NCBI RefSeq assembly: GCF_009765995.1
Contig: NZ_LMUI01000016.1
Coordinates: 248,001 to 312,000, forward strand
Reading direction: 5' to 3'
Origin: Methylocapsa sp. S129
Lineage (GTDB): Bacteria; Pseudomonadota; Alphaproteobacteria; Rhizobiales; Beijerinckiaceae
DNA length: 64,000 nt
A model generated the notes under the pieces. That model was not told where the DNA came from and did not search any database. It worked only from the letters and a program-made list of their open reading frames with translations. Below are positions 4,234-20,122 of this stretch, piece by piece; within the stretch, counting starts at the first letter, position 1; each line of letters starts with the position of its first letter. The translations under genes were made by a program, and so were the position numbers.

Positions 4234-4953
4234 TCATGCGGACGCCGATCCGTCAAAGTAGTCAGGGAGCTTTCTGACGAGCCGCGGCAGAGACGAGAGG
4301 AGCTCCGACAAATGTTCCCGCATGGCGGTCTGGGCGGAATCGGGATCGCGCGCGTTCAAAGCCCGGATGATGGCTTTGTGCTGTTGGATCAACAATTTTC
4401 CAGGCGTTGCATCGGGGAGGCTGAGATAGCGCACACGATCCATCTGCAATTTGACGTTTTGCAAAGTTCGCCAGACGTCTCCGTGTCCGATCGAGGCGGC
4501 GAAGGTGAAATGAAGCTCGTCGTCGAGCGAGAGGAAGGCGGCATGATCTTCCTGCTTTACTGCACGCTCCTGCGCGCTGACGATCTGTTCCATAGTCTTG
4601 ATCGCCGAAGGTTTGCTCCTCAGCGCGGCTTCCCGGATCACGGCGAGTTCCGCGGCTTCGCGAAGAAAGCGGCCGCTATCGACGCTTTGGAGATCGATGC
4701 GCGTAACCTCCGTTCCGCGCTGCGGAAGCGCGCGCACGAGCCCGGCTTCGCCCAGCCGGATCAAGGCGTCTCTTACGGGCTGACGGCTAACGCCGAGCGA
4801 AGCGGAGAGCTCGTTCTCCGACAGCCGCTCTCCCGGGCGAAGCACGTTCGTCAAGATACGTTGTACGAGTATTCGCTTAATTTGAGGTCCAAGCGCCTCA
4901 TTGGGGTCCAGCGCTTTCTCTGCAATTCCAGGCGTCACGACCGAATCCCCCAT
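4234..4953 (-). CDS. GntR-family transcription regulator, FCD subgroup
   Basis: A 239-residue regulator. It has an N-terminal winged helix of GntR type (about residues 22-88, with LSENELSASLGVSRQPVRDAL) and an all-helical FCD effector domain (about 95-220) that in this subgroup binds small carboxylic acids through a metal site. An AGAGG ribosome site precedes the ATG. It is transcribed away from the ABC genes starting at 5098, and the 16-bp palindrome at 5037-5052 lies in the shared spacer, next to its own promoter region. The same palindrome recurs at 9805-9820. I infer that this protein binds those sites and represses the island until a sugar-acid ligand appears. Confidence 0.9.
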   Translation of the reverse strand: MGDSVVTPGIAEKALDPNEALGPQIKRILVQRILTNVLRPGERLSENELSASLGVSRQPVRDALIRLGEAGLVRALPQRGTEVTRIDLQSVDSGRFLREAAELAVIREAALRSKPSAIKTMEQIVSAQERAVKQEDHAAFLSLDDELHFTFAASIGHGDVWRTLQNVKLQMDRVRYLSLPDATPGKLLIQQHKAIIRALNARDPDSAQTAMREHLSELLSSLPRLVRKLPDYFDGSASA

Positions 4954-5036
4954 TCATACCTCTTGAGAGTATAGCGCGGCCTTCAAGTCAAACTCCATGC
5001 GATAGGAACCGCGACAGTGGCGATTGACAATCGTTA

Positions 5037-5052
5037 TGGATACTAGTATCCA
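5037..5052. promoter_or_regulatory. Probable GntR operator, copy 1
   Basis: TGGATACTAGTATCCA is a perfect 16-bp palindrome in the spacer between the GntR gene and the first ABC operon, 45 bases before the binding-protein start. The core GGATACTAGTATCC recurs exactly at 9805-9820 and half of it at 19655-19665. Short palindromes in the spacer beside the regulator gene are the usual FCD-GntR binding sites. The assignment to this regulator is inferred. Confidence 0.75.
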
Positions 5053-5097
5053 ATAATTGCTCGAACGACAAAAATGGGAAGTGGGGAGGCGGCGCCG

Positions 5098-6195
5098 ATG
5101 AGGGGATTCATGCTAGCAATAAGCGGAAATTTTCGATCGACAATCGGTGCGGCGGTCCGGAGCAGAATCGGCTTGCCTTTCGTAAGTCTGGCGGCGCTCG
5201 CTCTGCTGTTCTTCGTCAGCAGCGCCATCGCGGCGGATGCGAATTCGACGAAAGTGGCGATTGTAGCAGGCGGCCCGCATCCGTATTTCGCGTCGTGGCC
5301 CCAAGCGGGGAAAGACGCGGCGCGCGACTTTCATCTTGGCGCTGCGGATTACAAGGTTCCGCAAAGCTGGTCGCTGAGCCAGCAGAACGATCTGATCGAG
5401 AGTCTAGCCTCTCAGGGTTATAACGCATTCCTGGTCTTTCCCGGCGACCCAGCAGGCAGCCGGAACGTCGTCGGTGAATTGGTCGATCAGGGAATGCCTG
5501 TGATCGCTTTAGCGGGTTGTTTGCAAGATCCTAGCAAGGCCGCCTTTTGCTTCGCGACCGATACCGAGCACTCGGCTTATCTGGGAGCCAAGGAACTGAT
5601 CAAGGCAATGGGCGGGAAAGGCCGCATCGCGCATTTCACGGGTTTTCTCACTGACCCGGGTACGGCGTTACGAATCAATGGCGTTAAGCAGGCGGTCGCC
5701 GAAACCAACGGGTCGGTGGAGCTTGTTCAAACGATTGCCGACATCGACGCCCCGGAACCGGCCCAGGACAAGATCAACGCATTCCTTGCGACGCAGGGCA
5801 AGCAAGTTGAAGGAATCATCGCGACCGCCTGGATACCGGCGACCGTCGCCGCCACCGCTTTGCGGAAAATCGGCGACAAGCGAATTCATATGATCGGCCT
5901 CAATGACGATCCCATCATTTTGGAGGGGATCAAAGACGGCTACGTAACGGGAACGATGCTTCAGAATCCTTACGGACAGGCGTATATTGGATCTTACGCG
6001 CTTGGAAAATTGATGTCCGGCTGCAAGGTCAAGACGGACGCGCCCTGGCTAAAGACTCCCCAGACGACGCATTTTGTCGATAGCGGCACGGCATATGTGG
6101 GGGCGAGCGACCTTGCCAACTATCAAGACAAGATGCAGGGCGTGACAAAGGATATTCTCGCGAGCTTCCAGCAGAAATATCTCGATTGCCCTTGA
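5098..6195 (+). CDS. Periplasmic sugar-binding protein, first ABC system
   Basis: A 365-residue periplasmic binding protein of the ribose/LacI type (Peripla_BP_4). A signal peptide with the hydrophobic stretch LPFVSLAALALLFFVSS ends near the AIAADA cleavage region, and the mature part has two alternating alpha/beta lobes. I chose the ATG at 5098 because GGGGAGG sits 8 bases upstream; the ATG at 5074 has no comparable ribosome site. It captures the ligand for the two permeases and ATPase that follow, and its stop codon overlaps the next start (TGATG). The operator palindrome lies just upstream. The ligand is unknown, but the neighbours suggest a sugar acid. Confidence 0.88.
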   Translation: MRGFMLAISGNFRSTIGAAVRSRIGLPFVSLAALALLFFVSSAIAADANSTKVAIVAGGPHPYFASWPQAGKDAARDFHLGAADYKVPQSWSLSQQNDLIESLASQGYNAFLVFPGDPAGSRNVVGELVDQGMPVIALAGCLQDPSKAAFCFATDTEHSAYLGAKELIKAMGGKGRIAHFTGFLTDPGTALRINGVKQAVAETNGSVELVQTIADIDAPEPAQDKINAFLATQGKQVEGIIATAWIPATVAATALRKIGDKRIHMIGLNDDPIILEGIKDGYVTGTMLQNPYGQAYIGSYALGKLMSGCKVKTDAPWLKTPQTTHFVDSGTAYVGASDLANYQDKMQGVTKDILASFQQKYLDCP

Positions 6196-7244
6196 TGCTG
6201 GAAGGTCTCCCGCCGGCGCAGGGCTCTGACGCAACAGAAACGCAGTATGAGAATGCGGGGCGCCTCGGCGGAAAGCTGGGACGTTTCCTGCTCTCGTCCG
6301 AGTTTGGGTTGCTGCTTCTGGTTGTGCTCGCTTTCGCCGGCTTCTGGTTATCGACTCGCGGCTTCAGTTCGCCGTTCAACCAGTTCGGCTTGAGCCGATC
6401 GGCGGCCGTCAACATCCTCATCAGCCTTTCCATGATGTCGGTGATCGTCTCGGGTGGACTAGATCTGTCCATCGGCGCGATCGGGGTTTGCGCCAGCATC
6501 TTGGCGGGCTGGCTGATGGAGGCCTGTCGATGGCCGGCGCCGGCGAGCGTCGCCGTGGGGTTGGCGCTGGGTGGTCTGCTCGGCTTTGCAAATGGTCAGA
6601 TAATCGTGCGCACGGGCATGCATAGCTTCGTGGTCACGCTTGCGACGATGAGCGTCTTCTTTGGAGGTATGATCATATTGACGACGGCGAAGCCGTTCGA
6701 CAGCCTTCCCGATGATTTCAGCCTTCCTGCGCAACAACATTTATTCGGCGCTGTTTCACCGCTGCTTGTCTACAGCGTTCTGATAGCCTGCATGATGGCT
6801 TATCTTTATCGTCTGACCGCGATAGGCCGTGACATGCTGGCTGTCGGCGCCAACGCTCGAGCGGCCCTACTGTCCGGGATCTCCGCATCGCGGGCGGTCA
6901 CGTTGTGCCACGCGATGGCCGGAATCCTTGCCGCCGTTGCGGGCGTAATGCTGTCAATGCGTAATGGCGCTGCGATCCCCTCAATGGCGGGAAATCTTGG
7001 TCAGGATTGGCTTTTGCCCGCTTTTCTTGGGCCGGTTCTGGGCGGCGCGTCGCTGAGTGGCGGCCGCGTGTCGGTGCTGGGCGCCGTCCTCGGCGCAGTG
7101 CTGATCTCCGTGATCAACAATGGGCTTCTGCTGCTCCATGTCGGGGCGTTCTGGCTGCAGTTTTTCCTCGGCATGCTTCTGCTTGGCGCCGTAATGATCG
7201 ATAAGGCGCGAATGCGCGTCTTCGCCAGCGGCGATCGTCGATGA
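6195..7244 (+). CDS. Ribose-type ABC permease A, first ABC system
   Basis: A 349-residue inner-membrane permease of the RbsC/BPD_transp_2 family. It has around ten hydrophobic segments and the family motif GGLDLSIGAIG near the third segment. The start ATG overlaps the stop of the binding-protein gene, and its own stop overlaps the next permease (ATGA). RbsC-type transporters usually use one permease as a homodimer. Here a second, clearly different permease follows, so a heterodimeric pore is likely. Confidence 0.9.
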   Translation: MLEGLPPAQGSDATETQYENAGRLGGKLGRFLLSSEFGLLLLVVLAFAGFWLSTRGFSSPFNQFGLSRSAAVNILISLSMMSVIVSGGLDLSIGAIGVCASILAGWLMEACRWPAPASVAVGLALGGLLGFANGQIIVRTGMHSFVVTLATMSVFFGGMIILTTAKPFDSLPDDFSLPAQQHLFGAVSPLLVYSVLIACMMAYLYRLTAIGRDMLAVGANARAALLSGISASRAVTLCHAMAGILAAVAGVMLSMRNGAAIPSMAGNLGQDWLLPAFLGPVLGGASLSGGRVSVLGAVLGAVLISVINNGLLLLHVGAFWLQFFLGMLLLGAVMIDKARMRVFASGDRR

Positions 7245-8197
7245 CGGCGACGCTACGGCTCTCCTCTGATTGGTTGGGGCTCGCGATCCTCACTCTGGGG
7301 GGCGCGATTTTTTTAAGCGTTCTGCGGCCGGACTTCTTGTCTTCGTACAATATTTTTGTCCTGCTTGATGCGATTGCCTTGTCGACGATGATCGCGCTTG
7401 GGCAGTTGGCGGTAATCGCGCTCGGCCAGACGAATCTTTCCCTAGGCTCCATCGGCGGTTTGGTCGGCGTCGCATTTGCGGGCGCTATGCAGGCAGGCGG
7501 CGTCGCTCCCTGGCTTGCGGTTTTGCTGGGACTCGCGCTTGGTCTCGCATGCGGCCTCATCAATGGTTTGCTAACGGCTCGGGCAGGCATTTCGGCATTC
7601 GTTATCACGTTAGCGACTCTGGCTGCTTATAAGGGGGTCAACCTTGGCCTCACACAGGCCCAGCCGCTGTACGATATACCGGCTGTTGTAAAAGCGGTCG
7701 GCACGGCCTCAATTTCTGGCCCTGTTCCCGTGCTCCTGATTCCGGCGGCGATTGCCGTGGTCTTCGTGTGGTGCTTGTTCGATCGTATTCCGCTGGGTCG
7801 GCAGATCCTCGCGGTAGGGGCAAATCAGCATGCGGCAAGGCTCGCAGGAATTTCGGTCTCACGCGCCGTCATCGCGACGCACGCTTTATCTGGTCTGCTT
7901 GCCGGCGCGGCGGGCATGATGGCGGTCGCGCGCCTTCAAGTCGGTCAACCGACGATTGGCGATGACTGGCTGATTCCCTCCTTCACGGCTCCAGTTATCG
8001 GCGGGGCGATACTCAGCGGCGGGTATGTCAGCGTAGCTGGCGCGGTTTGGGGGGTTGCGCTCGTCGTCCTGATCACTCAGGCGCTCGTGCTGTTCCAGGT
8101 CGATCCCTATTACGTGCAGTTCCTTCTGGGTTTGCTGATCCTCGCGGCCGTGGGCGTCAATCGTTTCAGGTCCAAACGACAGACCAAGGCGGTGTGA
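7241..8197 (+). CDS. Ribose-type ABC permease B, first ABC system
   Basis: A 318-residue RbsC-type permease with multiple membrane segments. The permease A motif GGLDLSIG is replaced here by GQTNLSLGSIGG. That asymmetry fits the second subunit of a heterodimer. The ATG overlaps the stop of permease A, and the ATPase gene starts one base after its stop. Shared segments such as GRQILAVGANQHAARLAGIS and the GGAILSGGYVSVAGA block near the C-terminus place it firmly in the family. Confidence 0.9.
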   Translation: MTATLRLSSDWLGLAILTLGGAIFLSVLRPDFLSSYNIFVLLDAIALSTMIALGQLAVIALGQTNLSLGSIGGLVGVAFAGAMQAGGVAPWLAVLLGLALGLACGLINGLLTARAGISAFVITLATLAAYKGVNLGLTQAQPLYDIPAVVKAVGTASISGPVPVLLIPAAIAVVFVWCLFDRIPLGRQILAVGANQHAARLAGISVSRAVIATHALSGLLAGAAGMMAVARLQVGQPTIGDDWLIPSFTAPVIGGAILSGGYVSVAGAVWGVALVVLITQALVLFQVDPYYVQFLLGLLILAAVGVNRFRSKRQTKAV

Positions 8198-8198
8198 A

Positions 8199-9758
8199 AT
8201 GTCGCCCGCTCTCGATCTGTCCGAGATCACGAAATCATTCCCTGGCGTGAAGGCGCTGCGCGGCGTCTCTTTGCGCCTTGATCCTGGAAGCATTCACGCG
8301 CTGCTTGGCGAGAACGGCGCCGGCAAGTCGACGCTCATTAAAATCATCACGGGGGCACAATCTCCGGAAGGCGGCGAGATATGTGTGTCTGGCAAGCCTG
8401 TTTGTTTCGCAAATCCTCTCCAAGCGATCGAAGCAGGAATCGGCGTCGTCCATCAAGAACGAAACCTCATCCCACGTTTCTCTGTCGGCGAGAACATCCT
8501 GCTCGATCGAATCGCCAGCGCCTCATTGCGCCCGATAAATTACAGCGCTGTTCATGATGAGGCGACGCATTGGTTGCGTTTGCTGGAACTCGACATCGAT
8601 CCCCGCCGTCTCGTCTCGGAATTGAACGTAGCGACGGCGCAGATGATCGAGATCGCGCGCGCTCTGTCCCAGCAGTCGCGCATATTGCTGATGGACGAGC
8701 CCACCGCGTCGCTGACGCTTAGCGAAACGCAGGCCTTGTTTCGCATGCTGCGTCGCCTTCGCGATCAGGGCGTCGCAATCTTGTTCGTCAGTCATAAACT
8801 TGAAGAAATCCTGGAGCTTTGTGACGCGGTCACCGTTCTGCGCGATGGCGGCAATGCGTGCCTCAGCCGCCCCCTCGCAGGAATGAGCCGAAGCGATATC
8901 GTCTCTCTCATGATCGGCCGTGCCGAGCCTATCCCTGACCTTGGTCGGAACCAGCGGACCGATCTGCCAGTGACGTTGTCGCTTGCTAGCGTCGCAACAT
9001 TGGGCGGCCATCGCGATATCGATCTCGATCTGCGTTCGGGAGAGATCGTCGGGCTCTACGGTCTGGTGGGAGCCGGACGAAGCGAGTTGGCGCGCGCCAT
9101 TATCGGCCTCGACCGGATCACACATGGTGAAATCCGGATCGACGGGGCGCCTGTCTCGATAGGAAGTCCGCGCGAAGCCCTTCACCGATTCGGTATCGGC
9201 TATGTCAGTGAGGATCGCAAGCAGGAAGGCGTGATACTCAGCCATGGCGTTCTGGCCAATGTCGGATCGACTGTCTGGTCACGATTGAGAGGTTGGTTTG
9301 GCTTTCTCCGCGACGCCACGGTCATTCGTCTCGTCGCTCCGGTGCTAAGCGCCCTGGAAGTCAAAGCCTCGTCACTGGATCAACTTGTAGAAAACCTGTC
9401 TGGCGGTAATCAACAGAAAGTGAGCCTCGCGAAATGGCTCGCTGCTGGGACTAGGGTTCTTATCGTCGATGAGCCGACCGTTGGGATCGACGTCAAGACA
9501 AAGGCTTATTTTCATCAGCTTCTTCACAAGCTTGCCCGTGAAGGACGCGCTGTGCTGGTCATATCGAGCGATATGCCCGAGCTGATCACTTTATCCGATC
9601 GCATCGCAGTGATGGACCACTATCGCTTGGTTGGTAAATTTGAGAACAGCGGCGACTATGGAGAGATGTCGCATGCAATTATGGCTTACATTCACGCAGC
9701 CCCGCCGACAGCATCCCTCAAGTCCCAGAACTCGGCTGCGAACGCTGCGGCGACTTAG
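8199..9758 (+). CDS. Ribose-type ABC ATPase (double NBD), first ABC system
   Basis: A 519-residue RbsA-type protein with two nucleotide-binding domains. The first shows GENGAGKST and MDEPTASLT. The second shows a degenerate P-loop (GLVGAGRSE), LSGGNQQK and VDEPTVGID. All expected motifs are present, so it should power the binding protein/permease A/permease B set encoded just upstream. A Ser/Ala-rich tail of about 20 residues follows the last NBD. It is the last gene of the operon; a long spacer with the second operator follows. Confidence 0.93.
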   Translation: MSPALDLSEITKSFPGVKALRGVSLRLDPGSIHALLGENGAGKSTLIKIITGAQSPEGGEICVSGKPVCFANPLQAIEAGIGVVHQERNLIPRFSVGENILLDRIASASLRPINYSAVHDEATHWLRLLELDIDPRRLVSELNVATAQMIEIARALSQQSRILLMDEPTASLTLSETQALFRMLRRLRDQGVAILFVSHKLEEILELCDAVTVLRDGGNACLSRPLAGMSRSDIVSLMIGRAEPIPDLGRNQRTDLPVTLSLASVATLGGHRDIDLDLRSGEIVGLYGLVGAGRSELARAIIGLDRITHGEIRIDGAPVSIGSPREALHRFGIGYVSEDRKQEGVILSHGVLANVGSTVWSRLRGWFGFLRDATVIRLVAPVLSALEVKASSLDQLVENLSGGNQQKVSLAKWLAAGTRVLIVDEPTVGIDVKTKAYFHQLLHKLAREGRAVLVISSDMPELITLSDRIAVMDHYRLVGKFENSGDYGEMSHAIMAYIHAAPPTASLKSQNSAANAAAT

Positions 9759-10168
9759 CCAGCGTTCAACACCTAGCGAAGCCCCTGTTGCTTGACCTTC
9801 ATCTAGGATACTAGTATCCTCACCGAGCGGCTGGCGGAACTAATTATCGGGAGGGCCAAACGCTAATGGGCAGGTCTGAGCGGCGCGTACCTCGCCCCCG
9901 TGGGTCCGCGCCATCAAATCGGCGGCGGTTTGTTTGTAAACTCATAGCGGCTCTGACTGAAGACGGGTCGGATCATGTGCGCCAATCAAGCGCCAGGCCT
10001 GATCAATGAGCCCATCGGTAGCGCTCGAAGCGACGAGGCGAACGAGCCGTCAAATAGCGGCCTCGCATCAATCTAAAATCTTGGGGCGGCTACGCCACGA
10101 GATCGTCGTGCGAGCCCTGCGTCCCGCGAGTCCGACGCGAACTTAATCAAACGACAAAGAAAGTTCCG
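9759..10168. other. Intergenic region with operator and a possible tiny ORF
   Basis: This 410-base spacer separates the two ABC operons. It contains the second palindromic operator at 9805-9820. A 47-codon frame starts at ATG 9866 after a GGGAGGG sequence and reads MGRSERRVPRPRGS… to a TGA near 10007; I do not recognise it and it may be chance. No hairpin with a T-run is visible after the ATPase gene. The long distance from the operator to the dehydratase start suggests a leader or an unseen small gene. Confidence 0.4.
9805..9820. promoter_or_regulatory. Probable GntR operator, copy 2
   Basis: AGGATACTAGTATCCT is a perfect 16-bp palindrome sharing the 14-base core GGATACTAGTATCC with the copy at 5037-5052. 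It lies 364 bases before the dehydratase gene that opens the second operon. A 14-base exact match at two operon fronts is strong evidence for one shared DNA-binding protein, most simply the GntR regulator encoded at 4234-4953. Confidence 0.75.
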
Positions 10169-11416
10169 ATGAAGATAACAGATATTCGGGCGACAACCGT
10201 CACAGTGCCTCTGGAAGCGCCGCTGCGGCACAGCAACGGAACTCACTGGGGTCGCTTCGTCCGAACGATCGTGGAGGTCGAGACCGATGAAGGCGTTACG
10301 GGCCTCGGCGAGATGGGCGGTGGCGGTGAAAGCGCAGAACTGGCGTTCTCCGGACTGAAGCCGTACCTGGTGGGACATGATCCTTTCAACTTAAATCGGA
10401 TGCGCTACGCCATCTGCAATCCGACGGCGTCGCTCTACAACAACCGGACACAATTGCACGCTGCTATCGAATTCGCCTGCCTGGACATTATCGGGAAGAA
10501 GTTAAACGTTCCGGTTTATCAACTCCTCGGTGGGCGTGTGCGCGACGAGGTCGCGTTCGCCAGCTACCTCTTCTATCGGTACGTCAATCCGGAGACGGGC
10601 GAAGGCGAAGTCCGCACCATCGATCAACTAATCGCCCACGCCAAGCTCCTGAAGGCGGAGCATGGGTTCGCGACGCATAAGTTAAAGGCTGGCGTCTTCC
10701 ATCCCGACTATGAACTCGAATGCTACAAGGCGTTGGCCGCCGCCTTTCCAGACGACACGCTTCGTTACGATCCGAACGCCGCCCTTTCGGTCGAGCAGGC
10801 GCTCAGGTTCGGGCAGTCGATAGGGGGCCTGCGAAACGACTATTTCGAGGACCCGACCTGGGGGCTGGCCGGCATGCGGCGTCTTCGCGAGAAACTCGCA
10901 ACGCCGCTCGCCACTAATACGATCGTGATAGACTTCGAGCAACTTGCCACCAACGTGCGCGATCCCGCGGTCGATGTGATCCTGCTTGACACGACATTCT
11001 GGGGCGGCATCCGGGCCTGCATCCGGGCGGGGCAAATCTGCGACACATTCGGTCTTGGAATTGCAGTGCATTCGTCGGGCGAGCTCGGCATCCAGCTCGC
11101 CACCATGTTGCATCTCGGCGCGGTTCTGCCGAACCTCACGTTCGCGGCGGACGCGCATTACCATCATCTCCTCGACGACATCATAGTCGGGGGGAAGATG
11201 CGCTATAAGAACGGGCGCATCGCAGTGCCCGATGGCCCCGGACTCGGCGTTACGCTGGATCGCGACAAGCTCCAAACCTACGCCGATTTGTACCGTTCGC
11301 TTGGGGGATACCCCTACGATCGCGATCCGGGCCGGCCGGGCTGGTACCCGCTGCTCCCCAATTCTGATTTCGCGGATCCAACGGTCAGCGCAACGCCCAG
11401 CCTTCGCACGCGATGA
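10169..11416 (+). CDS. Enolase-superfamily acid-sugar dehydratase, glucarate-dehydratase-like
   Basis: A 415-residue member of the mandelate racemase/muconate lactonising superfamily. The active-site set matches the glucarate dehydratase subgroup: Lys171-x-Lys173 (HKLKAG), Asp201-x-Asn203 (YDPN), Glu227 (YFEDP), Asn250 (LATN), an Asp in LLDTTFWGG and His301 (AVHSSGELG). Enzymes of this group remove water from C4/C5 or C2/C3 of sugar diacids or aldonates to give keto-deoxy acids, using Mg2+ held by the Asp/Glu/Asn ligands. It heads the second transporter operon, which supports catabolism of an imported sugar acid. The exact substrate cannot be decided from sequence. Confidence 0.85.
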
Positions 11417-11465
11417 ACGCGAGCGGTTGCTGGCGCTCAAGAGAACAATAAAGCAGGAGGGAACA

Positions 11466-12554
11466 ATGAGGATAAAACTGTTCAAAAACGCGACGGCCCT
11501 GAGCGCAATGCTCGCCATTTGGGCCGCGACGCAGCCAATGGCGGCGCTGGCCGAAAACGGAATCGCGAAAGGCGACACCAGCGGCAAAAAGATCGCTTTC
11601 AGCAATTCCTATGCAGGTAATTCCTTCCGTCAGGTCATGATCAAGAGCTTCGAGGAGATGGGGGCCCAAGCCAAGAAGGACCACCTGATCGCCGACGTTG
11701 CGGTTGTCAGCTCCAATAATTCGGTGACCGAACAGGCCGCCCAAATGCAAAACCTCGTGCTTCAGGGTTATGACGCCATCATTGTGCTCGCCGGCTCCGA
11801 CACGGCGCTCAACGGCGTCGTCAAGGATGCGTGTAACGCCGGTATTGTGGTTGTGGCCTTCGCGAGCGGCGTGACCGAGCCCTGCGCCTATCGCGTTGAT
11901 TACGACCTCGACACTTATGGGAAGGCGGAGCTGGACTACATAGCGAGCCGACTGGGTAAGCAGGACGCGAACCTCCTGGAGATTCGCGGCATGGCCGGCG
12001 ATGGTTTCGACAAGAGACTTCATGCTGGCGTCGAAAAGGCTGCGCAAGCGCATCAAAACATCAAGATTGTCAACGAGGTCTACGGCCAGTGGACCGCGAC
12101 GGTCGCTCAGAAGGAGGTTTCCGGCGTATTGCCGTCCCTGCCGAAAATCGATGCCGTGCTGACGCAGGGCGGTGATGGCTACGGAGCCGCGATGGCCTTC
12201 AAATCCGCCAGCCGCCCATTGCCGATCATCATCATGGGCAATCGTCAGGACGAACTCGCGCTCTGGAAAAAAGAATACGACGCCGGTGGCTACGAGACCT
12301 TCTCGCTCGGAGCGACCCCGAGTGTGTCTCAGGTGGCGTTCTGGGTCGCTCAACAAGTGCTGGCCGGCAAGAAGATGCCAAAATTCGTCGAGGTTCCATT
12401 GCTGCGCATCGATCAGAAGGATCTGGACGCGTGGCTGAGCAAGGTTCCTAACGGTGGCGTCGTCAACGCAGAATATTCGCAGGCGCTCGTCGCCGAGATC
12501 ATTGACGCGAACGCCAACCATACGCCCTTGCCGGCAGTGCCGGCTCCAAAGTGA
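11466..12554 (+). CDS. Periplasmic sugar-binding protein, second ABC system
   Basis: A 362-residue ribose-type binding protein with a signal peptide (hydrophobic core ALSAMLAIWAAT, likely cut after MAALAE). The start ATG follows a good GGAGGG site. The mature part shows the two-lobe pattern, with NLVLQGYDAIIVLAGSDTALNGVV in the first lobe. It differs strongly from the binding protein at 5098, so the second system probably recognises another, possibly related, compound. The ATPase gene begins four bases after its stop. Confidence 0.88.
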   Translation: MRIKLFKNATALSAMLAIWAATQPMAALAENGIAKGDTSGKKIAFSNSYAGNSFRQVMIKSFEEMGAQAKKDHLIADVAVVSSNNSVTEQAAQMQNLVLQGYDAIIVLAGSDTALNGVVKDACNAGIVVVAFASGVTEPCAYRVDYDLDTYGKAELDYIASRLGKQDANLLEIRGMAGDGFDKRLHAGVEKAAQAHQNIKIVNEVYGQWTATVAQKEVSGVLPSLPKIDAVLTQGGDGYGAAMAFKSASRPLPIIIMGNRQDELALWKKEYDAGGYETFSLGATPSVSQVAFWVAQQVLAGKKMPKFVEVPLLRIDQKDLDAWLSKVPNGGVVNAEYSQALVAEIIDANANHTPLPAVPAPK

Positions 12555-12558
12555 CTTA

Positions 12559-14058
12559 ATGTCCGCGCCCACCGTCGTCGCGCCGACCGTTCCCGCGCTT
12601 GAACCCTCGCCCGCCTTTCTCGATGTGCGCGACGTTCACAAAAACTACGGCGCAGTTCACGCCCTGCGGGGAGTGAATTTCAGGATCGGTCCTGGCGAGG
12701 TGGTGGGCCTGGTGGGCCACAACGGCGCCGGCAAGTCGACGCTGATGAACGTCTTGGCGGGCACGGTGCAGCGATCGAGCGGGACATTCAATCTTGAGGC
12801 TGTCGATGTGACGGCATGGAGTCCTGATCGCGCGCAGGACTACGGTTTGCGCTGTGTCTTTCAGGAACTGTCGCTCTGCGCCAATCTTGATCTCGCCGAA
12901 AACACGCGCATAATTCATCGTCCGCTGCGCGGCCCTGGATGGCGTAAGCGAGCCGGGGCCGTGATTCTCCAGACACTGGACGAAATCTTTCCCAACCACG
13001 GGGTTCCAGTCGGCGTTCGGGTGGGAGATCTGCCAATCGGCGTGCGGCAAATGGTCGAAATCGCGCGCGCCTTTAGCGTGACCGACACATCGGTGCGATG
13101 CGTAATCCTTGACGAGCCGACCTCGGCGCTTGGCCATGAAGCGGCTGAGCAATTGCTCGCTTATATCCGGAGCGCCGCGGAACGGGGGATTGCCTGCATC
13201 TTGATTACGCATCGGCTCGACGAGATCCTGGCGGTCTGCGATCGGGTTGTCGTCATGGTCGACGGTCAGATTGTGGCGGAACGCGACGCCAAGCGCCTCA
13301 GCCGCGCTGCGCTCGTGGCGCTCATGGGCAGCATCGAGGCGCCTCGGGAGCGCACCATCCGGGAAGACGAACCGGCCTCTCGGGGTCCGCTTGTCGTCGA
13401 TTCCCCGGGGCGCGGTGCGGGCGACCTTTCTATTGAAGCGGCTCTTGGCGAGATCATCGGATTTGCAGGGCTGGAAGGCCACGGGCAGAGAGAGCGATTG
13501 CGAGCGCTCTATTCGACCGGTCGAAAAAGAAGCGCGCATGGTCTCGCGCCCCCGGTCGCCTATGTCGCGGGCGATCGCGGCTCCGAAGGCGTCTTCGCGC
13601 TCTGGTCCGTTGCAGACAACCTGACGATCCGTAGCGTCAAGGCGTTGCGCCGGCGCGGACTGATTTCCTCCAAAGCCGAGAGGCGCCTCGCTCAAGCCTG
13701 GTCGGATCGTTTGAACGTCAAGACGCCCTCTATCGACACGCCTATTCTGAGCCTCAGCGGCGGCAATCAGCAAAAAGTCTTGTTCGCGCGTGCGCTCGCC
13801 TCCGACGCCAAGGTGATCTTCCTGGATGATCCGATGCGCGGCGTCGACGTCGGCACGAAACAGGAGGTCTATCAGTTGATCCGGAGCGAAGCCGCGAAGG
13901 GACGCTGTTTCGTATGGTACACGACGGAACTTGAAGAGCTGACCAATTGTGAGCGGCTGTACGTTTTTCGCGAAGGACGCGCCGCGGTTCAGCTCATGGG
14001 GCGGCAAATTGAACCTTCGCGTATTCTCGAATCCTCCTTCGGAGGCGGCAGTGACTGA
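12559..14058 (+). CDS. Ribose-type ABC ATPase (double NBD) with altered Walker B in NBD2
   Basis: A 499-residue double-NBD ATPase. NBD1 has GHNGAGKST and a normal LDEPTSAL Walker B, though the following D-loop reads SALGH instead of SALD. NBD2 has a very degenerate P-loop (GLEGHGQRE), a good LSGGNQQK signature, and FLDDPMRGVD, where the catalytic-type glutamate after Walker B is aspartate. Most relatives have DEPTRGVD there. The change may slow hydrolysis at one site. The start ATG was chosen by its position four bases after the binding-protein stop; the permease GTG start overlaps its 3' end. Confidence 0.9.
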   Translation: MSAPTVVAPTVPALEPSPAFLDVRDVHKNYGAVHALRGVNFRIGPGEVVGLVGHNGAGKSTLMNVLAGTVQRSSGTFNLEAVDVTAWSPDRAQDYGLRCVFQELSLCANLDLAENTRIIHRPLRGPGWRKRAGAVILQTLDEIFPNHGVPVGVRVGDLPIGVRQMVEIARAFSVTDTSVRCVILDEPTSALGHEAAEQLLAYIRSAAERGIACILITHRLDEILAVCDRVVVMVDGQIVAERDAKRLSRAALVALMGSIEAPRERTIREDEPASRGPLVVDSPGRGAGDLSIEAALGEIIGFAGLEGHGQRERLRALYSTGRKRSAHGLAPPVAYVAGDRGSEGVFALWSVADNLTIRSVKALRRRGLISSKAERRLAQAWSDRLNVKTPSIDTPILSLSGGNQQKVLFARALASDAKVIFLDDPMRGVDVGTKQEVYQLIRSEAAKGRCFVWYTTELEELTNCERLYVFREGRAAVQLMGRQIEPSRILESSFGGGSD

Positions 14059-15016
14059 AGCGGCGATGCATCGACGCGTCGCGTCGCGAGTCCCGCGATT
14101 AAGGGATGCCGTTCAGGTGGGCCTGCCCGTAGCGGCGCTGGCGATTATGCTAGCGATTATCTTCTGGATCCGACCTGCGGCGTTCAGCTTTTTCGGCTTC
14201 ACGCTCCTGTTTAGATTCGCGATCCCGCTGGTGTTTGCGTCCCTGTCGCAAATGCTGGTGATCATGCTGGGCGACATCGACCTCTCGAATGGGAGCTTCG
14301 TGGGGCTCACCACTTGCGTGACGGCGCTCTACCTTGAAAATGCGCCAGCCGAGGCGACTCTGATTTATGTCGTCATGATCGTCGCCTATGCGGCATTTGG
14401 CGTCCTGATTTACGTGCAGCGGCTTCCCTCGATCATCGTAACGCTCGGCATGTCCTTTATCTGGCTTGGCGCGTCGATCATCTTATTGCCGTCTCCAGGG
14501 GGATCCGCGCCGGACTGGCTCAGCGAATTCATGAGTTGGCGGCCGCCTTGTTTGCCTTTGCCGATTTGGATCGCGATCCTGGCGGCCGGGGTAGGGCATT
14601 TCTTCATCACCCGCTCGTCCTACGGCGCCGTGCTGCGTGGAGCCGGAGCGAACGCTCGCGCGGTCGAGCGCGCAGGCTGGTCGCTTATCGGGATACGCGC
14701 GGCGACATACGCTGCCGCTGGGCTGCTCGCCTTGCTGGCGGGTCTCACGCTGACCGGTCTTACGACCTCTGGAGATCCAAACGTCGCGCCGGCATATACC
14801 TTGTTGAGCGTCGGCGCCGTGATCCTTGGAGGCGGTTCTTTCACGGGCGGTATGGTGTCGCCGGTCGGCGCGGTGATTGGAGCGCTCACGCTATCGTTGG
14901 CCGGCTCACTGCTGAGTTTCTTGCAAGTGCCGCCAACATGGCAAATCGGCGCGCAGGGCGTGATCTTATTTCTGGTCCTCGCCGGACGAGCCTTGACCGC
15001 GGAGCGAACGCAATGA
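14051..15016 (+). CDS. Ribose-type ABC permease A, second ABC system
   Basis: A permease of about 321 residues from the RbsC family with many hydrophobic segments and the conserved MLGDIDLSNGSFVG motif. I placed the start at GTG 14051, which overlaps the ATPase stop region; an ATG at 14066 is the alternative. It ends with an ATGA overlap into the next permease. As in the first ABC system, two different permeases are encoded in tandem. Confidence 0.87.
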   Translation: MTEAAMHRRVASRVPRLRDAVQVGLPVAALAIMLAIIFWIRPAAFSFFGFTLLFRFAIPLVFASLSQMLVIMLGDIDLSNGSFVGLTTCVTALYLENAPAEATLIYVVMIVAYAAFGVLIYVQRLPSIIVTLGMSFIWLGASIILLPSPGGSAPDWLSEFMSWRPPCLPLPIWIAILAAGVGHFFITRSSYGAVLRGAGANARAVERAGWSLIGIRAATYAAAGLLALLAGLTLTGLTTSGDPNVAPAYTLLSVGAVILGGGSFTGGMVSPVGAVIGALTLSLAGSLLSFLQVPPTWQIGAQGVILFLVLAGRALTAERTQ

Positions 15017-15960
15017 GTCTCGCGCATCCGCGTGTCGTCATAGCGCCGTGGACCTATGGCTTCATTGTCGCCTTGGCGATGTGGATTGCGACTACGGTCT
15101 ATTCTGGACTGGGCAGCGCTGGCTCGACCTTGTCAGCCGCCTTGGCGTTTGGCGCCTTTAGCGTCACCGTCGGAACGGGACAGATGCTGGTGATCGCCTC
15201 CGGTCCGGGCAATATCGATCTTTCCGTGCCGTCGGTCATGGCGCTCGCCGCCTACGTGTCTATGACGATCATGCACGAAAGCAATAGTATGACGGCGCCC
15301 GGTCTGCTGGCCGCACTGGCTGTCGGCGCCGTGGCCGGGGCTCTCAATTTTCTTGCCATCACGGCGCTGCGTCTGCCGCCGATCATAGCCACTCTGGCCT
15401 GGAGCTTCGTTTTTCAATCCTTTACTTTCAATTTCGGCGGAGAGGCGACTCTCAAGCCGCCGGAAATCTTGTCGTGGTTCGCGGTTTGGCGTGTCGGCGG
15501 CGTGCAAGCGATGCCTGTCGCGGTGATGATCCTGACGCTTGTTATGATGATTGTCCTGCGTCGGTCCGTTTTCGGCCGTCAGTTGCTCGCGGCCGGTCAG
15601 AGCGAACGGGCCGCGGATCTCGCTGGCGTCGAAGTGGGCCGCGTTCGTCTGACGGCCTACATGCTGTGCGGGACCGCGGCCGCATTGACGGGCTTTCTGC
15701 TGTCCGGCTTCACGGGCGGCGCGGCGCTGAATATGGGCGACACTTATCTCATGGAGTCCATCGCTGTCGTTGTGTTGGGAGGGACCAGCGTAGCCGGAGG
15801 TCAGGCAAACCCGCTCGGCATCTGGGGAGCGGCGCTGTTTTTCAATCTCATGGCGACGATGCTGAATACGTTTCACTTCGAGGCTGGAGTGCGTTTCTTG
15901 CTCACCGGCGTTCTCATCATTTTGATTGTTGCAATCGCGCCGCGCGCCCGCGGAAGCTGA
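15013..15960 (+). CDS. Ribose-type ABC permease B, second ABC system
   Basis: A 315-residue RbsC-type permease. The ATG overlaps the stop of permease A. It carries ASGPGNIDLSVPSVM in place of the usual GGxDLSxG motif, and the typical C-terminal VVLGGTSVAGG block. It would pair with permease A in a heterodimeric membrane channel powered by the ATPase at 12559. A 15-base gap separates it from the cyclase-family gene. Confidence 0.88.
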   Translation: MSLAHPRVVIAPWTYGFIVALAMWIATTVYSGLGSAGSTLSAALAFGAFSVTVGTGQMLVIASGPGNIDLSVPSVMALAAYVSMTIMHESNSMTAPGLLAALAVGAVAGALNFLAITALRLPPIIATLAWSFVFQSFTFNFGGEATLKPPEILSWFAVWRVGGVQAMPVAVMILTLVMMIVLRRSVFGRQLLAAGQSERAADLAGVEVGRVRLTAYMLCGTAAALTGFLLSGFTGGAALNMGDTYLMESIAVVVLGGTSVAGGQANPLGIWGAALFFNLMATMLNTFHFEAGVRFLLTGVLIILIVAIAPRARGS

Positions 15961-15975
15961 GCCGGGTTAAAGGTC

Positions 15976-16713
15976 ATGACCAATTGGGCTTCTCCTCCAG
16001 ATTCCGTAGACGCGCTTTTAAAAGCGGTTGCGGCCGCAAAGCTCGTCGATCTCACCCATCCGCTCAAGGCCGGAATGCCAGTGTGGCCAAGCCATCCTCT
16101 CTTTTGTCAAGAGGTCGTAGAATCCTTAGAGCGCGGCGACGTCAGTTGCTTCCACGCCCTGTCCATGGGCGAGCACACCGGAACCCATTTCGACGCGCCG
16201 TCCCATTTCATCGGAACGCCAGGCGGCTGGTCTATTTCGGAAGCGCCCCTCGAAAAGTTCTTCGGCCGCATGGCCACAATCCACACGAAAGGTATGGCCC
16301 CCCGCGCGGCTGTAGAGCCAGAAGTCGTCATGGCTTGGGAGGCCAAGAACGGGCCGATCGCCAAGGACGACGCTGTCTTCTTCCATTTCGAGTGGGACCG
16401 GTTCTGGGATGATCATCCGCGCGAGTTCCTAGCGGACTGGCCGGGGCTTTCCTCGGCCACCTGCGAGCTGCTGGCGGCGCGCGGGGTGCGAATCGTTGGC
16501 TCGGACTGCCTATCGATCGACTGCTTTGGCAGCAGCGATTTTCCCGCTCACCATATCCTGCTGGGAGCCGGCATTCTGATAGGGGAAAACTTCGCCCGTC
16601 TCGGCATCCTCCCGCCGATCTGCTACCTGGCGACGCTTCCGTTGCCGATCGTCAATGGATCTGGTTCTCCCCTGCGCGCGATCGCATTCGTACAGTCCGC
16701 ACAATGTGTCTAA
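15976..16713 (+). CDS. Cyclase-family metal hydrolase
   Basis: A 245-residue protein of the cyclase/kynurenine-formamidase family (PF04199). The metal-binding motif HTGTHFDAPSH lies near residues 58-68, preceded by DLTHPLKAGMPVWP, which is the usual N-terminal landmark. Family members hydrolyse amides, lactones or cyclic imides with a bound divalent metal. As the last gene of the dehydratase/transporter operon, it could open a lactone or a related ring of the imported compound. That is inference from context. It is convergent with the mannitol-dehydrogenase-family gene. Confidence 0.82.
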   Translation: MTNWASPPDSVDALLKAVAAAKLVDLTHPLKAGMPVWPSHPLFCQEVVESLERGDVSCFHALSMGEHTGTHFDAPSHFIGTPGGWSISEAPLEKFFGRMATIHTKGMAPRAAVEPEVVMAWEAKNGPIAKDDAVFFHFEWDRFWDDHPREFLADWPGLSSATCELLAARGVRIVGSDCLSIDCFGSSDFPAHHILLGAGILIGENFARLGILPPICYLATLPLPIVNGSGSPLRAIAFVQSAQCV

Positions 16714-16793
16714 AAAATCCAAAACCCCTTGAGGCGGTCCAGCGTTCGCTTCGCATATCCTTGGGGCCGCAAAGTTAGGCGTATAGGCTCTTG

Positions 16794-18305
16794 TCAATGA
16801 GGGCCGATATAATCGCCAACGAGACCCGCCACCGCTCTTTGCGCGCCGTCTCGAATCAATCGACCATATGAATTCGTTACCGCTGTTACAAACTCGGCGC
16901 TGTCCTTCAGGTCGTCGCCAAATACAGCTTCGACCGATATGAGCGCACGCGCCTGATCAGCCGCCGTGTCGCCGGCGGCTTCAATCCGTTCGCGCAACAG
17001 TCGGGCCAGGGGATCCCGAACATCGATGACGCCGCCTTTCTCGTCAACGCCCGTCACGTAACGCATCCAGCCGGCCACGGCGAGCGCCAAATACGGAAAC
17101 GGGCGATTCCGCCTGAGATTATCTCGGATGCTCGAAAGGAGGCGTTGCGGCAGCTTTTGCGAACCGTCCATGGCAATCTGCCAAGTGCGATGCCGGATCG
17201 CCGGATTGCTGTAGCGGGCGAGAAGTTGATCCGCGTAGCGATCCAGATCCATTCCGCGAAGCGCGGGCAGCACGGGGATTACGTCCTCGCTCCAAAATCG
17301 TTTGATATATTTCCGGAAGGTTTCGTCCGACACGACATCGACGATCGTCTCGTGCCCCGCCAGATAACCAAGATAGGCCAGGGCAGAGTGCGAGCCATTC
17401 AGCATCCTGAGCTTTGCGTGTTCGAAGGGTGCGACGTCCGACACGAACTGCGCGCCCGCTCGCTGCCAGGACGGTCGGACATCATTAACGAAACGATCCT
17501 CCAGCACCCATTGACGAAACGGTTCATGCATCACTGGAGCGGCGTCAAGCAGCCCTATCAGCTTCTCGACCTGATCCAGATCGCCCGGCGCCTCCGCAGG
17601 AACAATCCGATCCACCATGCCATTGGGAAATGGGACGTAGCTCTCAATCCAGGACGCAAGCGCGTCGTCGCGCAGCGCTGCGAAATCACCGACCAATCGT
17701 GCTAGCAGCGCGCCATTGCGGGGAAGATTGTCGCAGGTCGCCACAGTGAATGGCTGAAGTCCGGCCGCACGTCGACGCGCCAGGGCTCCAGCGAGGAGAC
17801 CGACGGCCGATTGCGGCGCATCGGGATTAGCCAGATCGCGGCGAATATCCGGATGATCGGCGTTGAGTTGTCCGGAAGCCGGATCATGACAATAGCCCTT
17901 TTCTGTCACCGTCAGCGTGACGATCTCTGTGTCTGGCCCACTGAGCAGCTCGAGAATGGCGCCCGGACTCTCTGGCCCGACCAACACATCCAGCAGACAG
18001 CCCACAAGCCGCGCTTGCTGACCAGCCGGACCCGTCTCGACGGCCGTGTATAGGCAGTTTTGCGGCAACAGCCGGTTTCTTTGCTCGGGGCGCTTCAAGC
18101 TGGCGCCCACGATGCCCCAATCGCCGCCACCTTCTGCGAGCACGTCTTCCGTGAAAAGAGCTCCGTGCGCCCGGAAAAAGGCGCCCAGCCCAAGATGAAC
18201 GATTCGCGGCCGAAGGCGCGATCGATCGTAACCAAACCGAACCGCGCCGCTCCGGGCCGAGTCCATGGTTGTGAGGGAAAGTCGGGGGGCGGAGGGTTGG
18301 TCCAT
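16794..18305 (-). CDS. Mannitol-dehydrogenase-family oxidoreductase (fructuronate reductase-like)
   Basis: A 503-residue member of the polyol-specific long-chain dehydrogenase family, which includes mannitol 2-dehydrogenase and fructuronate reductase (UxuB). It has the N-terminal HLGLGAFFRAH nucleotide-fold strand and the catalytic signature KLRMLNGSHSALAYLG with the invariant Lys, Asn and His. Length is normal. The neighbouring L-galactonate-dehydrogenase-like gene and the uronate-type regulator make a hexuronate/aldonate substrate more likely than mannitol. The start ATG follows a GAGGA site; a second ATG a few bases further upstream is in another frame. Confidence 0.85.
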   Translation of the reverse strand: MDQPSAPRLSLTTMDSARSGAVRFGYDRSRLRPRIVHLGLGAFFRAHGALFTEDVLAEGGGDWGIVGASLKRPEQRNRLLPQNCLYTAVETGPAGQQARLVGCLLDVLVGPESPGAILELLSGPDTEIVTLTVTEKGYCHDPASGQLNADHPDIRRDLANPDAPQSAVGLLAGALARRRAAGLQPFTVATCDNLPRNGALLARLVGDFAALRDDALASWIESYVPFPNGMVDRIVPAEAPGDLDQVEKLIGLLDAAPVMHEPFRQWVLEDRFVNDVRPSWQRAGAQFVSDVAPFEHAKLRMLNGSHSALAYLGYLAGHETIVDVVSDETFRKYIKRFWSEDVIPVLPALRGMDLDRYADQLLARYSNPAIRHRTWQIAMDGSQKLPQRLLSSIRDNLRRNRPFPYLALAVAGWMRYVTGVDEKGGVIDVRDPLARLLRERIEAAGDTAADQARALISVEAVFGDDLKDSAEFVTAVTNSYGRLIRDGAQRAVAGLVGDYIGPH

Positions 18306-18623
18306 ATCGTCATGTTCCTCTGTCTGTCATGCTCGCTGGCGATCGCGCACTTCTAGTGGGAATCGGCGACCAAGCTTCGATGCGACAAAGCGCGGAACCG
18401 AATGAGCGAGAACAGGCGAAGCTCTCTCGACGTTCGCGGTCGGCAAGGCGTAGCCGCTGCGCCATCAAAATCGCGGTGTGGAGATCGGACATCCCGTTCG
18501 CACGCGGCATTGATGGCTAGGGATTCTGGTAAATCTCTCCTGGACACGGGCCGATAGTTGCAACGAGCCCGACAGCGCGCTGTCGCCTTCACAAGAATGA
18601 AGCAGCGGGGCCCAAATCGCTCA
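18306..18623. other. Intergenic region, nothing recognised
   Basis: These 318 bases separate the zinc dehydrogenase stop from the mannitol-dehydrogenase-family start on the same strand. Two short minus-strand frames exist (about 66 and 79 codons) but their products resemble nothing I know and have skewed Arg/Ser/Ala composition, as chance frames do here. No copy of the GGATACTAGTATCC operator was found, so the two genes may share one transcript from the upstream promoter. Confidence 0.4.
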
Positions 18624-19640
18624 TCAAGAAAAATCGAGCTGAACCTTGAGGGTTTTCTGCGGATCTTTTTCTATGAGGTCGAAGGCGGACCGTGCGTCGG
18701 CGGCTGCGAACACCTGCGTAATCATGCTTTCCGGCTTCAAGCGTCCCTCGGCGAGCCACGTGATCACTTGCGGGAGAAGGCGTCGGTTCAGACGCGAACC
18801 CACTATCGTCAACTCCTTTCGCACCATCTCTTGCTGGCTAAGACCTGACGGCGCGGGGGAAAATCCAAGCAGTCCGATCCGACCTGCCGGAGAGGCTATA
18901 CGACAGGCCTCATCGAGCAAGGGTGGTACGCCGGCCCCATCGATTACCACAGTCGGTCCCAGTCCGTTCGTCTCCGGTTTGACCGCTTCTGGGACGGGCT
19001 GCCGTCGCGAATTGATGACGACATCGGCGCCGAAAAGCTTGGCGCGTTCAAGGCGCGCCTCGTCGATGTCGGCGATAATGCAGCGTGCGCCATGGAGCTT
19101 GGCGACCTGCAGAACGGTGATGCCGACTGTGCCTGCTCCATAGATCAGAACTGTATCATCCGGACCACATCCGGTCCGCGCGAGAACGTTCGCTGCGATT
19201 GAATAGGGTTCGGCAAGAGCCGCGCGATCGAACGACATATTGGCGGGAACAGGAATAACATTACCGGCTGGCACAGCAATAAAATCCTGGAACCCGCCGT
19301 CGCGATGAACGCCTATGACCTCAAGATTGGCGCAGACGTTGGCACGGCCAATCCCGCATGGGTAGCAATGTCCGCAAGAAATGACAGGGTCGACCACTGC
19401 GTGCTGGCCTTCTCTGATGCTTGTGACGCCCGAACCGAGGGCTGTCACCACGCCTGCGAACTCGTGGCCAATCACGCGAGGATAGACCGCGAATGGATTG
19501 GAGCCATGCAAGATGTGAACGTCCGATCCGCAGATGCCGGCGCGTTGAACTCGAATCACCACCTCATCCGGCTTCGGCGCTGGCGCGGCGCTTGGCTTCA
19601 CTTCGAGAGCCAAAGGCTTGGAAACTATCACGGCAACCAT
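18624..19640 (-). CDS. Zinc-dependent alcohol dehydrogenase, L-galactonate/idonate 5-dehydrogenase-like
   Basis: A 338-residue medium-chain dehydrogenase. Catalytic zinc ligands are visible as Cys37 (GICGSD) and His59-Glu60 (GHE). The structural zinc loop is complete with Cys89, Cys92, Cys95 and Cys103. The Rossmann domain has GAGTVG. The overall pattern resembles the RspB/YjjN (LgoD) group, which oxidises aldonates such as L-galactonate to keto acids. The start lies 15 bases from a half-preserved copy of the GntR operator, so it probably belongs to the same regulon. A truncated relative sits at 60380-60670. Confidence 0.87.
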   Translation of the reverse strand: MVAVIVSKPLALEVKPSAAPAPKPDEVVIRVQRAGICGSDVHILHGSNPFAVYPRVIGHEFAGVVTALGSGVTSIREGQHAVVDPVISCGHCYPCGIGRANVCANLEVIGVHRDGGFQDFIAVPAGNVIPVPANMSFDRAALAEPYSIAANVLARTGCGPDDTVLIYGAGTVGITVLQVAKLHGARCIIADIDEARLERAKLFGADVVINSRRQPVPEAVKPETNGLGPTVVIDGAGVPPLLDEACRIASPAGRIGLLGFSPAPSGLSQQEMVRKELTIVGSRLNRRLLPQVITWLAEGRLKPESMITQVFAAADARSAFDLIEKDPQKTLKVQLDFS

Positions 19641-19654
19641 TGTTTTCTTTCGCT

Positions 19655-19670
19655 TGGATACTAGTCGACA
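19655..19670. promoter_or_regulatory. Degraded GntR operator, copy 3
   Basis: TGGATACTAGTCGACA keeps the complete left half and centre of the copy-1 operator (TGGATACTAGT), while the right half has diverged. It lies only 15-30 bases before the zinc dehydrogenase start, where a bound repressor would block transcription. With one good half-site it may bind more weakly than the two perfect copies. Confidence 0.55.
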
Positions 19671-19876
19671 ATTGCCCAGTCAGAATCGACAGTCAAGCGG
19701 AGTGCGGGTCGGCTTGCCGAATGGCGCCAGCGGCGTGGATGGCCTGTCGAAACAGGCCGGCCTCGTTTCGCAGCGCGCCTCAGTTTCGAGGGCCTTGTCA
19801 CATTGTAGAATAGGGACCGCGATGAGGGTGCCGGGAGTGACTTGCCAGGCAGTCGCGAAGGCTGCGCGCGACGTGT

Positions 19877-20008
19877 TCATCGCCGCGGCGAGACCGCAAT
19901 CTCACGCTGCGCCAACAAATCATCGCCATCGCGCAAGCTCAAGGCGAACCGGAGATCGAGCCAAATCGCCCGCTGAATGATCTCGGGCGGGAACCGCACC
20001 AATCTGAT
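19877..20008 (-). pseudogene. Remnant of an IS6-type transposase (N-terminal part)
   Basis: Reading the minus strand from about 20008, one frame gives IRLVRFPPEIIQRAIW, then LDLRFALSLRDGDDLLAQRE and a stop at 19877-19879. This matches the start of IS6/IS26/IS240-family transposases (FPPEII..AIWLYLRF.LS.RD.E.LLAERG). Only about 43 codons remain; the DDE catalytic domain is missing and no terminal inverted repeats were found. The relic lies in the spacer between the zinc dehydrogenase and the GH3 gene and marks past mobility at the right edge of the sugar-acid island. Confidence 0.65.
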
Positions 20009-20122
20009 CGTCTATATGGCGACCGCGCTCGGCGCGCCGATTTTCTCGCAACGTCTGCGCGTTTCGCCTGAACGGCCGTCCATCGATTCCAAGTCGATGA
20101 GACGCGATGCATTTTCAAGACT

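Follow-up and report, generated by a model that had tools for sequence, protein, structure and literature searches.

A predicted ACTAGT-centred operator of an FCD-type GntR regulator in a sugar-acid gene cluster of Methylocapsa sp. S129

Operators of the FadR subfamily of GntR regulators follow the consensus TKGT/ACMA, with GT and AC 2-3 nt apart and UxuR in the 2-nt group, a consensus that, in the sections cited here, is called typical of the subfamily but not required, exceptions including NanR and BioR being named (PMC4494728). The operator of NanR, given as (GGTATA)3 (PMC8012715) or as TGGTATAW repeats (PMC4494728), consists of direct repeats on which three dimers assemble via a 32-residue N-terminal extension (PMC8012715). 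Among regulators of sugar-acid genes, a predicted UxuR regulon of the GntR family that includes an ATP-binding cassette (ABC) transporter has been described in Rhodobacteraceae, as has an L-gulonate locus with a GntR regulator and a tripartite ATP-independent periplasmic (TRAP) transporter in Halomonas and C. salexigens (PMC5507952), while the L-gulonate pathway of H. influenzae comprises the GulPQM TRAP transporter, GulD, UxuB, UxuA and UxuR (PMC5788505). Here we describe a 64,000-nt stretch (the window) of the 6.87-Mb genome of Methylocapsa sp. S129, in which the gene of an FCD-domain GntR regulator (4234-4953) stands beside genes for two ABC transporters, a dehydratase, a cyclase and a dehydrogenase. 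We consider it very probable that this regulator is a local repressor that would bind an ACTAGT-centred operator at three promoters, one of them in its own spacer, and would thereby control uptake and oxidation of a hexuronate/L-gulonate-type acid; ligand, substrate and operon extent are likewise read from the sequence. The case is carried by the positions of the sites, their rarity, the promoter geometry they have in common and the co-occurrence of their core with regulator homologues in relatives.

Three operator-like sites in one cluster

The palindrome GGATACTAGTATCC, an exact 14-mer in our scan of the window, occurs at 5038-5051 and again at 9806-9819; the first-pass annotation had placed these copies at 5037-5052 and 9805-9820, and the copies are real while the spans were one base too wide at each end. 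As 18-bp predicted operators, site 1 (ATGGATACTAGTATCCAA, 5036-5053) lies in the divergent spacer between gntR and the gene of the first substrate-binding protein (SBP1), site 2 (TAGGATACTAGTATCCTC, 9804-9821) between the first ABC operon and the dehydratase gene, 349 bp before the ATG of the latter, and site 3 (TTGGATACTAGTCGACAA, 19654-19671) 15 bp before the ATG of the dehydrogenase gene (ADH). At site 3, GGATACTAGT occupies 19656-19665 and the corresponding 14-mer (19656-19669) has 3 mismatches to the palindrome. Half of the palindrome had been reported there, at 19655-19665; that much is present, but GGATACTAGTCGAC at this place appears to be a hybrid of two operator forms and no half-site. 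As had also been proposed, all three sites precede transport or oxidation units, site 1 standing within the gntR/SBP1 spacer.

Exact copies of the 14-mer are found at two places in the genome, 4.8 kb apart, and allowing up to 2 mismatches adds a single place, with two mismatches and none with one, compared to 8 places, none of them exact, for the reversed control. This control contains TGATCA, which is far commoner in the genome than the core ACTAGT (2038 places compared to 43, about 47-fold). In the window, ACTAGT occurs only at sites 1, 2 and 3, and at all 40 other genomic ACTAGT places, each fetched and inspected, GGAT before the core and ATCC after it are both absent. Random scatter of the motif, which had been named beforehand as the outcome that speaks against a regulon, was thus not found in this genome. 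The sole two-mismatch copy, on contig C51 (1501-1514 of the fetched piece), falls within an intergenic spacer or at its border; of the two flanking genes one is LysR-like and the other transporter-like, both named by reading their sequence alone, and this copy was set aside.

In the direction of the transport and oxidation genes, all three sites display (T/C)TGAC(A/C/T)-N17-TATCC. On the forward strand, TTGACA-N17-TATCCA (5024-5052) has its second hexamer inside site 1 and is directed at SBP1, and TTGACC-N17-TATCCT (9792-9820) overlaps site 2; on the reverse strand, CTGACT-N17-TATCCA (19655-19683) overlaps site 3 and is directed at ADH. TGAC-N17/18-TATCC occurs at four places on both strands of the window, three of which are sites 1-3. 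A generic promoter scan of 4940-20140 listed 4 promoters, compared to 4.3 in shuffled sequence, and among these were the promoter-like sequence at site 2 (9/12 consensus matches) and neither of the other two. Given that, at every site, TATCC follows a TTGAC-like hexamer at a distance of 17 bp, the -10 element probably lies within the operator, an arrangement that would fit simple repression.

The ACTAGT core in relatives

To follow the core beyond this genome we examined 51 loci of the closer regulator homologues: nine of the 20 loci of a first homology search (L004-L012) and 42 (L025-L066) from two further searches, in which loci were taken for the best matches only (30 and 13, new or repeated). 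L013-L023, at 30% identity or less, were left out; these are ten Pseudomonas loci and one from a clostridial metagenome-assembled genome, and in L013 a single ACTAGT is present, some 6 kb away from gntR. Exactly one ACTAGT is present in 27 of the 51 loci and none in 24, while the same 294,609 bases hold 126 TGATCA; since many loci with the core belong to one group of nearly identical copies, they do not count as 27 independent cases. In these 27, the core lies at most 45 bp from the estimated gntR start, or, in L004, between gntR and uxuB, or, in L009-L012, where an ADH or dctP unit of the cluster begins. Among the homologues found, that of Acidisoma sp. L85 (L004) comes closest to the window regulator, at 62% identity. 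Its gene and uxuB are divergently arranged; after uxuB come uxuA and transporter genes that share 58-65% identity with transporter 2 of the window, and the only ACTAGT in 16.7 kb is in the gntR/uxuB spacer.

Gene maps were drawn for 25 loci; the motif was the reason for fetching four of them (L131-L134, of which L133 coincides with L008), and regulator homology was the reason for the others. The core is present in 16 and absent from nine, one of the nine being the uxuA region of the Methylocapsa genome itself, which has no regulator homologue. The sites in these maps stand before units for the regulator, for uxuA/uxuB, for a dehydrogenase or for a transporter: in five loci (L010, L011, L131, L136, L138) the core precedes a dehydrogenase that shares 68-69% identity with the window ADH, in L009 and L139 it goes with dctP, and in L012 it goes with dctP near the start of an open reading frame. 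The closest parallel to the window cluster is L138, in which ADH, gntR, uxuA, SBP2 (79% identity), an ATPase (75%), two permeases (79% and 81%) and a cyclase (69%) follow one site in unbroken order. The window dehydratase and SBP1 were found in none of the 25 mapped loci at the thresholds used. These relatives tie the core to homologues of the regulator and to the same gene set, which supports the single GntR regulon that the first-pass annotation had proposed; the marker of the regulon is the ACTAGT core with variable flanks and not the exact 14-base palindrome on which that proposal was built.

Two further searches within the family started from the dehydrogenase and from the motif. Dehydrogenase orthologues (E<=1e-80) are present in 5 of 298 family genomes, with ACTAGT at most 60 bp upstream in four; in G020, the fifth, the dehydrogenase belongs to an operon headed by the core. 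The strict pattern TKGKMKACTAGTMKMCMA was written after the Methylocapsa genome and the loci of the first search had been seen, and it occurs once in each of 5 of the 298 genomes (3 sites for the reversed control). The match in the Methylocapsa genome is site 3, 14.7 kb from gntR; elsewhere the site is about 120-130 bp from a regulator homologue in G128, G209 and G029 and about 4 kb from one in G288. Since G209 is the record of L008, only G128, G288 and G029 are fresh cases.

The relatives also clarify site 3. Symmetric sites (L008, L010, L011, L131, L132, L134) contain two GTCGAC boxes 8 bp apart, as in ACTTGT-CG-ACTAGT-CG-ACAAGT of L008, and judged by its letters site 3 is a hybrid operator that joins a GGATAC half to a GTCGAC half. 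We rejected its description as a degenerate half-site, since the second half matches the operator of the relatives. A weight matrix was built exclusively from relatives, with ten loci that have an ACTAGT as well as a uxu or ADH context; it gave site 3 the top score of the window, 22.2 bits, which exceeds all of 30 Markov maxima (16.2 at most). In a related group of regulators (L028, L033, L142 and similar loci), TACTAGTATGGTAGT stands just upstream of gntR, with TNGT boxes at an 8-bp period that resemble a repeat array.

Proposed repression, counter-evidence and alternatives

In the mechanism that we favour, GntR would bind an 18-22 bp operator centred on ACTAGT at the promoter of transporter 1, in the spacer common with gntR itself (and hence with autoregulation), at the promoter of the unit formed by the dehydratase, transporter 2 and the cyclase, and at the dehydrogenase promoter, perhaps with uxuB. 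Bound to the -10 region (TATCC), it would block RNA polymerase, and it would be released by a pathway metabolite, most likely D-fructuronate, D-mannonate or the imported acid. The pathway would consist of the uptake and oxidation of a hexuronate/L-gulonate-type acid, with ADH oxidising the acid to fructuronate and UxuB reducing fructuronate to mannonate. We read the pathway in this way because UxuA models match in the relatives and UxuB and an RspB-like dehydrogenase are encoded in the window, and because of the described UxuB/UxuA chemistry (PMC6353982) and the L-gulonate pathway of H. influenzae (PMC5788505).

A number of observations weigh against this reading. In the weight-matrix ranking of the window, site 1 came second with 11.8 bits and site 2 sixth with 8.9, both below the ten highest Markov maxima (12.6-16.2). 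Flank-only scores are the fair figures, because the relatives' sites entered the matrix for having ACTAGT, and among 63,979 positions these rank site 3 at 6, site 1 at 2356 and site 2 at 6371; sites 1 and 2 therefore rest on their mutual identity, on ten bases in common with site 3 and on their position. In the Methylocapsa genome, the 18-bp pattern at up to 3 mismatches has 22 places compared to 33 for its control, and ACTAGT is absent from the 19.5 kb examined around the uxuA gene on contig C34. The exact 14-mer was not found in ten other genomes of the genus. ACTAGT is missing from 8 of 24 mapped loci with a regulator homologue (L007, L135, L143-L148), and some homologues have TTGTATACAA in their promoters instead of an ACTAGT site. 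Regulator homologues at E<=1e-30 are present in 112 of the 298 family genomes and the strict pattern in only 5, so most homologues do not use the strict form. Among 385 genomes of the class, the strict pattern was found only in the Methylocapsa genome and in G558 (control, 2), with no homologue of a window gene within about 9 kb in G558; the link therefore holds well inside the family, and with this pattern it was not reproduced outside. As promoters, the TATCC(A/T) hexamers are poor -10 elements, matching at 3 or 4 of 6 positions, and no promoter of the TGAC-N17-TATCC geometry was found directed toward gntR. Finally, in a regulator tree of 42 rows (41 hand-chosen loci and the window), the window regulator pairs with that of Acidisoma (100/99) inside a 21-row group (98/90), and so stands in another clade than the regulators of the closest dehydrogenase clusters, which belong, with the TTGTATACAA-promoter regulators, to a 16-row group (98/98).

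The window dehydrogenase, transporter 2 and cyclase are closest, among the compared loci, to L138 or its like in this 16-row group. We tentatively suggest, as a possibility that we think doubtful, that the regulator was exchanged: these genes may come from a lineage with the operator GTCGACTAGTCGAC and may now be under an Acidisoma-like regulator that reads GGATACTAGTATCC, with site 3 half-converted. The full operator might then be three 6-bp boxes at an 8-bp period, as in L008. Two dimers would have the middle box in common, and such a form would be intermediate to the palindrome of FadR and the repeat array of NanR. Such a swap, with a half-converted site 3, would explain why the regulator pairs with Acidisoma yet the genes are closest to the L138 group, and it is offered as a reading rather than a result. 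If true, it would be a natural example of operator change when one regulator replaces another.

The alternative that deserves most attention is that the sites are operators of a different regulator of the genome, the nearness of gntR being incidental, or that paralogues share them. Four further FCD-type homologues, 31-36% identical to the window regulator, are encoded in the genome, and the clade difference seen in the tree would also suit this explanation. One of these paralogues, on contig C59 (407160-407813, 36%), has TTGTATACTAGGGTACTA, with 3 mismatches to the operator pattern, about 126 bp upstream (region 407160-407956), for which reason cross-talk with it is possible. Against a different regulator, the core lies beside homologues of the window regulator in relatives, that of Acidisoma included, and none of the four paralogues is on the contig of the window; we therefore regard this explanation as unlikely. 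More improbable still is that the sites have in common mainly a promoter element, a -10 with its flanks, copied between promoters, and that the palindrome is incidental. The identical TGAC-N17-TATCC geometry is what would be expected from such copying, and TATCC is in the half kept in site 3; yet a -10 element leaves unexplained the upstream GGATAC half and the GTCGAC half of site 3, and the symmetric ACTAGT-centred sites of relatives that were compared do not share this geometry. Chance repetition of a short palindrome is the least credible of all. At up to 3 mismatches the 14-mer has three matches in the window compared to a mean of 0.51 in 100 shuffles, and a single shuffle did reach three, but two exact copies lie 4.8 kb apart in 6.87 Mb and the core recurs with the same genes in relatives. 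We rejected chance on the strength of the shuffles, the two exact genomic copies and the rarity of ACTAGT. Repression by the window regulator thus remains the reading that we prefer.

Other regulators may govern other branches of hexuronate metabolism in this genome, since the uxuA gene on C34 lacks the core and, on contig C17 (L150, 1103491-1105575), a gene for the uronate isomerase UxaC directly follows the gene of a further FCD-type GntR protein that shares 35-37% identity with the window regulator. The C17 pair may possibly constitute a second hexuronate regulon.

Cluster genes and known systems

The 239-residue regulator encoded by gntR (4234-4953, reverse strand) belongs by its domains to the FadR (FCD) subfamily, with Pfam GntR at 66.8 bits (cut-off 27) and FCD at 83.4 bits (cut-off 24.3). 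It reaches no curated regulator model: the best match is a phosphonate-associated regulator (108.8 bits, cut-off 271.5), and scores fall below the cut-offs for NanR (NF003011, 62.2 bits, cut-off 260) and for the E. coli-type Uxu operon regulator (NF007588, 30.1 bits, cut-off 442). On the forward strand, SBP1 (5074-6195; Pfam Peripla_BP_4) is a sugar ABC substrate-binding protein whose start is probably at 5098, after GGGGAGG, and not at the listed 5074. The rest of transporter 1 (6186-9758), with permeases at 6186-7244 and 7241-8197 and an ATPase at 8199-9758, was assigned from these open reading frames by their sequence and position. Downstream of site 2, a 349-bp leader (9820-10168) contains an Arg-rich 47-residue open reading frame (9866-10009) preceded by GGGAGGG, and no RNA family matched at its gathering threshold in positions 1-26000 of the window, this leader included. 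The dehydratase (10169-11416, forward) has Pfam MR_MLE domains of the enolase superfamily and resembles the glucarate dehydratase group, scoring 162 bits against the glucarate dehydratase model (cut-off 828.7), with 4it1 as the nearest solved chain (E 1.1e-79). It is followed on the same strand by SBP2 (11469-12554; Peripla_BP_4; nearest solved chain 4pe6; 79% identical to that of L138), by the ATPase and two permeases of transporter 2 (12556-15960, limits approximate; 75-81% identical to L138 and 58-65% to Acidisoma) and by a cyclase-family protein (15976-16713; Pfam Cyclase; 69% identical to L138).

On the reverse strand, ADH (18624-19640) is an RspB-like Zn-dependent dehydrogenase that passes the cut-off of its model (PRK10083 / NF007489, 397.8 bits, cut-off 376) and whose nearest solved chain, 4ilk, is named RspB. 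In the same direction, 318 bp behind ADH, uxuB (16794-18305) encodes a fructuronate-reductase-like member of the mannitol dehydrogenase family, which scores 496 bits against the fructuronate reductase model NF011611, under its cut-off of 603, ahead of D-arabinitol 4-dehydrogenase (274.6), and is 52-61% identical to its counterparts in nine mapped loci and 40% in L137. The gene set originally assigned to the regulon is therefore supported, with the correction that the dehydrogenase unit may also include uxuB.

The operator was not encountered in the regulon literature covered by our searches; with ATACTAGTAT, no title among the matches listed concerned it, and with ACTAGTCGACAA nothing was returned. 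The window sites depart from the FadR consensus: sites 1 and 2 hold GTATCC, and site 3 has GTCGACAA in one half only, so that the three sites do not follow TKGT/ACMA; in view of the exceptions named for this consensus, the regulator still counts as a subfamily member by its domains. The symmetric sites of relatives contain GTCGAC, which fits GTM-KAC (PMC4494728), but their two boxes overlap, 8 bp apart, around ACTAGT. With NanR the system shares an FCD-type GntR regulator with an operator of 6-bp boxes, and the window protein resembles the NanR model in its C-terminal part (E 5.5e-17); in contrast to the direct repeats of NanR, the window sites, as seen in the DNA itself, are palindromic.

Like the Rhodobacteraceae UxuR regulon and the Halomonas and C. 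salexigens loci, in which a GntR regulator is predicted to control glucuronate or L-gulonate genes together with a transporter (PMC5507952), the window combines these elements. The likeness is one of gene content; with 30.1 bits against a cut-off of 442, the window regulator is remote from the E. coli Uxu model. As in H. influenzae (PMC5788505), a dehydrogenase and a fructuronate reductase-like protein are encoded in the window, and clusters of relatives also have uxuA and a TRAP transporter. Unlike the H. influenzae set, the window cluster relies on ABC transporters, two in number, includes a cyclase and an enzyme that resembles glucarate dehydratase, and lacks uxuA.

With these results, a formerly anonymous FCD-type GntR protein gains a proposed operator and three proposed target promoters, and its probable pathway and a few candidate ligands can be named. 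The predicted regulon is probably new but of an already known and fairly ordinary type, since the FadR-subfamily consensus (PMC4494728), the Rhodobacteraceae UxuR regulon and the L-gulonate GntR loci (PMC5507952) have already been described.

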